Source of the DNA: an uncultured Bermanella sp.
GTDB lineage: Bacteria; Pseudomonadota; Gammaproteobacteria; Pseudomonadales; Oceanobacteraceae
Direction: 5' to 3'
NCBI GenBank assembly: GCA_913058575.1
Contig: CAJXRF010000031.1
Coordinates: 1 to 56,080, forward strand
DNA length: 56,080 bases
Shown here: positions 45,859 through 47,077 of the stretch, piece by piece
Position numbering within the stretch: the stretch's first letter is position 1
Layout: each line of letters begins with the position of its first letter
Translations under genes and position numbers: made by a program
Notes under the pieces: generated by a model
What the model was told of the DNA's origin: nothing
Seen by the model: only the letters and a program-made list of their open reading frames with translations
The model's database searches: none

Positions 45859-46930
45859 TTGCTTGCATATATTAATAAGTACCTTCAACCTATATTTGTT
45901 ATTACATTTTCCATTTTTTTGTTAGTTTCATCCCTTGGCCATAGCTGCGAGTTGGTGATGGGCTATCAAAAAAAGGCAAAGCCCCCTCTTATCAATAATG
46001 CCCCCGATAACTTAGGAATATATCTTGAAATTTACGCCCAAGCGGCCCAAGAGCTTGATTGCACCTTAAGGTGGTTCGCTTACCTAAAAGGCGAGTATTA
46101 AACGAAATGAAGCAAGGCTGGATTGATTTTTACCCGGGTATGAAATTTACCGATGAGCGCTCTATCTATGCGTATTTTATTGCTAATGGCTTAACCACAG
46201 GGCGTGTTGGGTTATCACGAATCAGCATGCCATTGATTACCAACAAGCAACACCTCACTGGCTACTCGCTTTTAATTACCTTGGGTGGCATTAACTATGT
46301 AAGAGATGTTCATGGCATTAAAGTACATCAGGTATTAAGGGCATCTCTATTAATTGCTTGCGCCTCTGGCTTTACGCCTTGTTCAGAATCAAGGCGGGCA
46401 AGGAAGAAATGCTTATTGCCTTTCAAGGAAGACCACCGCAGAGTCTGGACAAAGCGTAAAGCCCCGTAGGGCGCGACGCCAAGCACACATTGTCGGCGTT
46501 GCGCTGCTTGAAAATGGAACCACCATTTTACTTCGCCGCGCGCCTTGTCACTGTACGCTTGGCGTCACGCAGAGAAAGTAATCAATTAATAGAGGTGCCC
46601 TTAAGTTTAGACATTGAAAAAGCGGCCAAAATGCTCACCTTAGAACGGGGAGACTTCTTCGCCACAGACCCTTTTGTCATAGACAATTTTCTTAAGAATG
46701 TCGAAGAAGCCATCTTTAAAAAACACCCACATTGTTGCGGCGGTATAAAACCCATGTATATCGGGTTCTCTAAGAAGTCGAAGCACTTAGCAGAAATAAA
46801 TAACCCTGATTACAATAAAAATTTACCCTTAAGCCTAAAAAATTTTTCCACATTAATCGCCAAAGACAGCACAGCTTACCGATTTGGCGAAGCCGTTAGG
46901 GGCTTGGTTAAAAGATATCAGTATAAATAG
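45859..46930 (+). pseudogene. Solute-binding-protein pseudogene with frameshift and insertion
   Basis: Three frame pieces add up to one SBP_bac_3-type protein. The first (45859 to ~46073) has a signal peptide and GYQKKAKPPLINNAPDN. The second (from ~46074) carries VRLPKRRVLNEMKQGWIDFY, the family's RLPxKR block. The third (from 46605) has LSLDIEKAAKML and the hinge-to-end part. A single missing G near 46073 (TGG-GTT expected) shifts the frame. A 270-bp inverted-repeat element at 46335-46604 splits the gene; removing it with one TTAA copy joins VHQVL directly to SLDIEK. With both repairs the length is 807 bases, exactly 269 codons. The gene is dead twice over. Confidence 0.9.
46335..46604. mobile_element. 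MITE-like element with 22-bp inverted repeats and TTAA duplication
   Basis: The left end TTAAGGGCATCTCTATTAATTG (46335-46356, split here as TTAA plus GGGCATCTCTATTAATTG) and right end CAATTAATAGAGGTGCCC plus TTAA (46583-46604) are inverted repeats with one mismatch. TTAA is on both sides and its single copy restores the interrupted frame, so it is a target duplication. The 262-bp body is GC-richer than its surroundings and folds: CGCCTTG/CAAGGCG at 46375-46396 and GACGCCAAGC/GCTTGGCGTC at 46475-46566. It has no transposase, so it would move by a full-length relative. I cannot name the family. Confidence 0.88.
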
Positions 46931-47077
46931 TTAACGTTATTCAAAAAAAATATAATCACACTGGAAATGACGATTATTAAAAGTAATATTATGGCCTACG
47001 TTTCTAGGCTCATATTAATGGGTCAAACTCTAAGCTTTACCATGGACACAATACCATGCCATTTTTCCCTAAGCGGC

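Follow-up and report, generated by a model that had tools for sequence, protein, structure and literature searches.

The MITEs of prokaryotes, small elements of jumping DNA that lack an enzyme of their own, are usually seen as decayed ISs with disposable interiors. REPINs, also multi-copy, consist of two inverted hairpins and are not known to have terminal repeats with target duplication. Of most relevance here is the MITEPsy1/ISPsy2 pair of Pseudomonas syringae pv. phaseolicola. MITEPsy1 is 100 nucleotides long, with ends GGAAGGTCTGAAAAAGCC and GTATCCTCTGAAAAAGCC, and is found at CTAG or YTAA with a 4-nt duplication; an IS5-family parent has been proposed and movement shown (PMC3189936). The same paper names REPINs with their RAYT transposases (PMC3189936). 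MITEAba12 of Acinetobacter is a 113 bp element with GGCTTTGTTGCACAAA ends and 9-bp duplications (PMC6382973), whilst ISHsp2, an IS630-family element of Halomonas, produces a TTAA duplication (PMC3606827). At the RNA level, a review depicts the predicted folding of a transcript of Coxiella QMITE2 and mentions small RNAs derived from such elements (PMC10969869).

The window, by which we mean the whole stretch of 56,080 nucleotides analysed, comes from an uncultured Bermanella sp. and carries, at 46335-46604, a 262-bp element placed between TTAA repeats inside a decayed solute-binding gene (Table 1). The first-pass annotation had described it as a MITE-like insertion and in most respects that description is borne out. 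The inverted ends are near-perfect, GGGCATCTCTATTAATTG matching CAATTAATAGAGGTGCCC at 17 of 18 bp, and TTAA is present on both sides exactly where it was placed. The interior is, as noted, GC-richer than its surroundings, 52% in the body compared to 40% over 2 kb on each side, and the proposed folding is pronounced, with a predicted energy for the single strand of -126.6 kcal/mol (z -9.7, none of 200 shuffles as good); the predicted fold is very stable on both strands. A size of 262 bp is indeed non-autonomous, and the ORFs in or overlapping the element are short and have no Pfam match. The claim that the window contains no transposase holds for DDE_Tnp_1, which has no match on the contig and to which the scope of the search is confined. 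The insert is short, carries no transposase gene, possesses terminal inverted repeats and a target-site duplication, and has dispersed copies; its identity as a MITE is supported.

Table 1. Positions of the element, its parts and the interrupted gene in the window
Feature	Position	Strand	Basis
Left copy of target duplication, TTAA	46335..46338	.	Direct reading; 4-bp repeats also in relatives
Left inverted terminal repeat, with the type A sequence GGGCATCTCTATTAATTG	46339..46356	+	Sequence and genome-wide end-pattern matches
Right terminal inverted repeat GGGCACCTCTATTAATTG (read on - strand)	46583..46600	-	Sequence and end-pattern matches
Right copy of target duplication, TTAA	46601..46604	.	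Direct reading
Arm A, 96-nt hairpin unit, stem with conserved mispaired stretch	46368..46463	+	Model R1, 73.0 bits
Junction motif AAGCCCCGTAGGGCGCGAC, conserved, small CC-GNA-GG hairpin between arms	46459..46477	+	Family motif scans and alignment
Arm B, second hairpin unit, inverted with respect to arm A	46472..46569	-	Arm-A model on the other strand, 47.0 bits; E 6e-9, an approximate value
Interrupted solute-binding-like gene, upstream piece, further frameshift before it	46059..46334	+	ORF reading
Interrupted gene, downstream piece (SLDIEK...), same frame without element and one TTAA	46604..46930	+	ORF reading

The reading frame had been thought to be restored exactly by excision. Removal of the element and one TTAA does join VHQVL to SLDIEK in frame, but the gene has other damage. 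Upstream of the element lies a second lesion, a frameshift, which leaves the first part of the gene in another frame (ORF 45859-46101), so the interrupted solute-binding-like gene is decayed anyway. A search of 34 relatives gave no orthologue of this gene and hence no orthologous empty site. On contig C37 of the host genome (locus L310) a paralogue with 38% identity over 69 residues has an open frame of 298 residues and, as read by eye, no insert at the corresponding place.

The host genome contains four more near full-length copies, of 95, 92, 86 and 83% identity, plus several deleted ones. The fear that the element might be a singleton is further dispelled by copies in two genomes of the same genus, three near full-length matches together with partial ones in G003 and one match in G001; in all, 4 of the 35 genomes searched, the host genome included, have a match to the element. 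A 22-mer of TTAA plus the end, with up to three mismatches, gives 22 matches in the host genome (including the two ends of the element itself) and none for the reversed control, which is well beyond chance, and the end pattern with up to two mismatches is present at 37 places compared to two for its reversed control. Solo ends of the ATTAATAGAGGTGCCCTTAA type, with no visible partner, were also observed in this genome (e.g. L015, L019, L025, L026, L032). Identical 4-mers flank five copies or stubs, namely TTAA (the window copy and one stub), ATTA, TTTA and TATA, and other copies have unequal flanks, for example TCTA/TAAA, which we read as decay. Of the strict TTAA target first envisaged, the 4-bp duplication stands, being seen at many copies, but the site is AT-rich or YTAR-like rather than TTAA alone.

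Five clear stubs of 26 bp in the host genome consist only of ends. They are palindromes, perfect or with a few mismatches, in which the two ends are fused, and three of the five retain identical flanking 4-mers; a sixth stub, on contig C77, is degenerate. In the window copy ATTAAT occurs in both ends as a direct repeat and loss of everything between leaves exactly 26 bp. A 48-bp stub in Gilvimarinus (G306), read by eye, fits a loss between two CTCTGG repeats. The simplest account would be that short direct repeats at the base of a hairpin have served as deletion endpoints, and such an origin would suggest that the element folds in the cell. The family looks old in the host genome, given that the near full-length copies differ by 5-17% from that in the window and the sole similar-ended relative of IS5 type is decayed. 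As a separate observation, contig C11 of this genome (L123, 1417-2265) encodes a 282-aa protein that by eye is like a REP-associated tyrosine transposase, the gene having GGTCAGGTCTTGCCTTTTGC inverted repeats around it.

The element belongs to an old family, present in many marine bacteria, the inside of which is two matching hairpins. The hosts are mostly marine. Part of the interior, 117 bp long, was matched by a repeat from another family of the order, and the junction motif AAGCCCCGYAGGGCGCGRC, with at most one mismatch, occurs within the order in 21 of 293 genomes and 18 of 118 genera, part of the 21 being chance judging by context; two genomes match the reversed motif, once each. A scan of named genomes places structured elements, among the matches listed, in at least Alcanivorax, Gilvimarinus, Marinobacterium, Microbulbifer and Saccharospirillum, and also in at least Porticoccus, Pseudomaricurvus, a Halieaceae MAG and a Thiotrichaceae MAG, with chance matches in further genomes too. 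Relatives occur in many Gammaproteobacteria, the most distant having 43% identity to the window copy, a figure obtained from 28 representatives of less than 85% mutual identity with gap columns scored as differences. Plasmid and phage collections gave no match for three queries. On an IMG/VR contig classed as viral (L284, 5057-5323) two type B ends are 267 bp apart; the arm model found no arm there, and the pair could belong to a different MITE whose ends are similar. About 130 bp downstream of a family member, at L104 1776-1933, there is a molybdenum-cofactor riboswitch (Rfam RF01055, 58.8 bits).

The motif scans gave 129 distinct places, 97 with at least one flanking motif and 70 with both, and five more were added by hand. 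The counts that follow concern 63 elements with ends in a fixed list of end words, from which type D and unlisted types are absent. Lengths range from 257 to 310 bp, with 53 of the 63 at 262-268 bp. Identical 4-mers, mostly CTAG or TTAA, flank 34 elements and are absent from 29. By end type this is 12 of 21 for A, 13 of 30 for B, 6 of 7 for E and 3 of 5 for F, using the best-fitting end offset and repeat length for each type and including one B row without a left flank. Nine of the 34 are non-palindromic, and two non-palindromic cases fit longer inverted ends instead. Type A is found at AT-rich 4-mers (TTAA, TTTA, ATAA, ATTA, TATA), type B often at CTAG. Both flanks are open for 100 codons in 25% of the 57 elements whose flanking sequence was long enough, compared to 59% of 1140 random positions at the same loci, and at 40, 60 and 80 codons the values are 74 versus 90, 54 versus 81 and 44 versus 69%. 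Location inside an open frame is therefore rarer among the elements than among random positions; the window copy is itself such a case.

Alignment of family members reveals two inverted hairpin arms of approximately 97 nt, joined by AAGCCCCGNAGGGCGCG. The consensus fold, from 22 of the 28 representatives (alignment A1, the six longest left out), has 98 pairs, with standard pairs in 93.6% of cells. At 82 of the 98 pairs at least one row has both partners changed, a level reached by none of 500 shuffles, although such counts are not probabilities, given that this alignment itself supplied the predicted structure and its rows share ancestry. When partners are slid by one to three columns the paired cells fall to 35-45%. 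Mispaired stretches in the arms are also conserved, up to 95% per column, with CAAGGCG placed opposite CAACGCAG; in arm A of the window copy it is opposite CACCGCAG, the consensus being CAACGCAG. When a covariance model of arm A is run over the 22 elements with E up to 1, it recognizes arm B on the opposite strand in 16 (15 of these below 1e-4), six having no such match, and on the same strand in one (E 0.8). Arm A matches its own reverse strand in 14 of the 22, as hairpins may, so it is the contrast in orientation at arm B that is telling. That the shape has been kept while the letters changed suggests the folded DNA itself matters.

What moves such an element? The ends resemble those of IS5-family ISs, with 20 identical bases in one case: GGAACCTCTGAAAAACTCCC is shared by an Alcanivorax element (L171), an IS in G219 and three partial IS copies in G276. 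The genome G219 holds an intact IS5-group IS of approximately 1.15 kb, with CTAG on both sides and ends GGAACCTCTGAAAAACTCC and GGAAGGTCTGAATAACTCC, and also family members with ends GGAGCCTCTGAATAACGCC. Its transposase passes the NCBIfam IS5 cut-off, as does the IS5 transposase P0002 of G225; G225 has an IS5-group IS with like ends, and G015 an IS5 with similar ends and no clear repeat. In the first-pass annotation, a full-length IS with the same ends was named as a finding that would support the reading. Similar-ended full-length ISs exist in related hosts, but for the exact end type of the window (GGGCACCTCTATTAAT) no intact parent was found, and the host genome has only a decayed copy with stops. 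This IS5-type pseudogene retains one recognisable end, GGCATCTCTAAAAATTGCC, 66 bp before the ATG and with four mismatches in 18 to the family end, a likeness equalled by 640 of 200,000 random 60-mers of the host genome (those with family end words excluded). The fragment scores below the NCBIfam IS5 cut-off, and 18 other genomes, most of them with the same end type, contain no close relative. Type B members, then, have ends like those of an IS5-family IS; for type A one pseudogene end is all that is comparable.

Other candidate parents were considered and set aside. DDE_Tnp_1 has four matches in the host genome. The ORFs on C11 and C1 are IS4-like by eye, that on C101 is of IS5 type but decayed, and C122 was scanned for ends only; no parent emerged from this set. 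In the genus listing no inverted pairs of window-type ends could be read at IS-like spacing, and such pairs elsewhere (L222, L234, L238) are between separate elements or involve matches with three mismatches. A viral-contig relative of the pseudogene transposase has no matching end. ISs of about 1.7 kb of the L253 type (IS1182-like by eye), as a source of the CAGGCTGTTGAAAAAC ends, have ends that differ, and a 2.8-kb pair in G307 (contig C46) looks by eye like two separate elements around host genes. That genome, an uncultured Alcanivorax MAG (L311-L330), has 88 exact matches to the D-type end AGGCTGTTGAAAAA, several near contig ends, a sign of strong amplification.

On balance we consider it likely that this is a non-autonomous MITE of a conserved family, mobilized by an IS5 transposase, with a fold probably used in survival or transposition. 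An IS5-type transposase acting in trans is the best reading of the movement, a link drawn from end sequence and target alone. The enzyme, made elsewhere, would recognize both inverted ends, and insertion would occur at a 4-bp AT-rich or YTAR-like site with duplication of that site. As a single strand the whole element is predicted to form a cloverleaf, in which the pair of ends is the closing stem and the two inverted units of approximately 97 nt are arranged around the small CC-GNA-GG hairpin. Conservation of the fold extends far beyond that of the sequence, with little variation in length, so the fold probably contributes to survival or transposition, perhaps by bringing the ends together at replication forks or by binding protein. 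The same folding would make the element prone to loss, with direct-repeat deletion leaving stubs of exactly 26 or 48 bp.

A different view of the interior is tenable, if rather less than an even prospect. It may be an independent, ancient DNA module, not IS-derived, that rides successive IS ends, the mispaired stretches representing a single-stranded DNA recognition structure that raises transposition or persistence. The end sets so ridden would be at least CTCT-type A, B, E and F and CAGGCTGTTGAAAAAC (Alcanivorax), and possibly GGGCCTGTTMACACTAAT. The interior has nothing in common with five IS copies beyond 12-mers, so the element is no visible deletion derivative of them. On a tree of interiors, trimmed by about 24 bp on either side, eight changes of end type are needed where the minimum possible is four; A and B mix in a Gilvimarinus clade, and B and D in an Alcanivorax clade, type D being two rows only, added by hand. 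The CTCT-type ends may be one drifting lineage rather than exchanged ends. Two finds of the arm model, L098 (in G225, about 2480-2770) and L164 (in Gilvimarinus, about 1-220, cut by the locus edge), display the same kind of arms with quite different ends, GGGCCTGTTAACACTAAT and GGGCCTGTTCACACTAAT (GGGCCTGTTMACACTAAT).

Could the pairing be passive? Palindromes are prone to template switching, which would copy one side of a stem onto the other and leave a fold without function. The excess of cells changed on both sides (523) over those changed on one (64) is in keeping with this, but we regard it as unlikely. Copying would erase the mispaired stretches, CAAGGCG against CAACGCAG, which nevertheless survive; unpaired columns are conserved to the same degree as paired ones (0.72 versus 0.70), and the overall length of the element is held.

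Less likely still is a fold that acts in RNA, with the transcribed element serving as a regulatory RNA, terminator or mRNA stabilizer. A fold serving RNA should display G.U above A.C. Over all 98 pairs there are indeed 97 G.T cells to 51 A.C, the predicted stability on both strands is compatible with a transcript, and QMITE2 offers a precedent. However, four positions where G.T is commonest supply 49 of the 97, and elsewhere the numbers are 48 and 50, with the caution that these positions were left out post hoc and that conserved G.T can itself be read as evidence for RNA. Eight tRNAs called by ARAGORN, a program that itself favours complementary stems, gave 10 G.T and no A.C. With G.T no commoner than A.C outside the four positions, the evidence leans, short of proof, to a fold maintained at the level of DNA. 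Rfam gave nothing in 46000-47000 (E up to 1), and in 10 loci searched with gathering cut-offs no match fell on the element. There is no promoter-like site in 46200-46750, where the sole terminator-like site, at 46727-46740 on the - strand, is outside the element.

That some other transposase, IS630-like with TTAA targets or of an unknown kind, moves these ends and the likeness to IS5 is convergent we judge improbable. In its favour, and against the IS5 reading, a relative of P0002 is absent from 14 of 20 carrier genomes, and two of the remaining six have distant pieces only. Several of the genomes are drafts or MAGs, but in Gilvimarinus G306, where the end is matched exactly 31 times, DDE_Tnp_1 and P0002-like matches are both absent. 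ISHsp2 makes TTAA repeats, and the end type of the window is located at AT-rich 4-mers where type B often has CTAG. Against convergence, the four CTCT-type ends have a common core and the 4-bp target size, 20 bp are identical in the comparison with IS5 ends from G219 and G276, and the host genome has its IS5-type pseudogene end.

The interior of this family is a two-hairpin module common to many genera, which is beyond what could be seen from the window. It keeps shape and length across those genera while letters and end types change, and the question is opened of whether the interior of a MITE helps movement. For annotators, AAGCCCCGNAGGGCGCGRC between two inverted arms provides a signature for otherwise unexplained repeats. 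We recognized no description of the conserved two-hairpin interior and its spread in the open-access literature, ISfinder being outside the scope of the search.

Comparison with the known systems separates what is familiar from what differs. MITEPsy1 has ends that are like type B ends here, is likewise short and non-autonomous, and uses the same target class, CTAG/YTAA with a 4-bp duplication; the window copy is at TTAA, and the family also uses TTTA, ATTA, ATAA and TATA. As MITEPsy1/ISPsy2 combines this end class and these targets with proven movement, how the element probably moves is, by the open-access literature, not new in kind. MITEPsy1 differs in its length, 100 nt compared to approximately 265, and the description available to us mentions no two-hairpin interior. 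The IS5 group (NCBIfam NF033581) is similar in ends and in 4-bp CTAG repeats and is present in some carrier genomes, but its ISs are of approximately 1.15 kb with a 313-aa transposase and the five copies compared are unrelated to the family interior. MITEAba12 is similar in its near-constant length, in ends that match several ISs and in an interior that, as described, is not derivable from them (PMC6382973), and is set apart by its 113 bp, 9-bp duplications and GGCTTTGTTGCACAAA ends. Unlike REPINs, the family described here combines terminal inverted repeats and 4-bp target duplications with long arms in which mispaired stretches are conserved.
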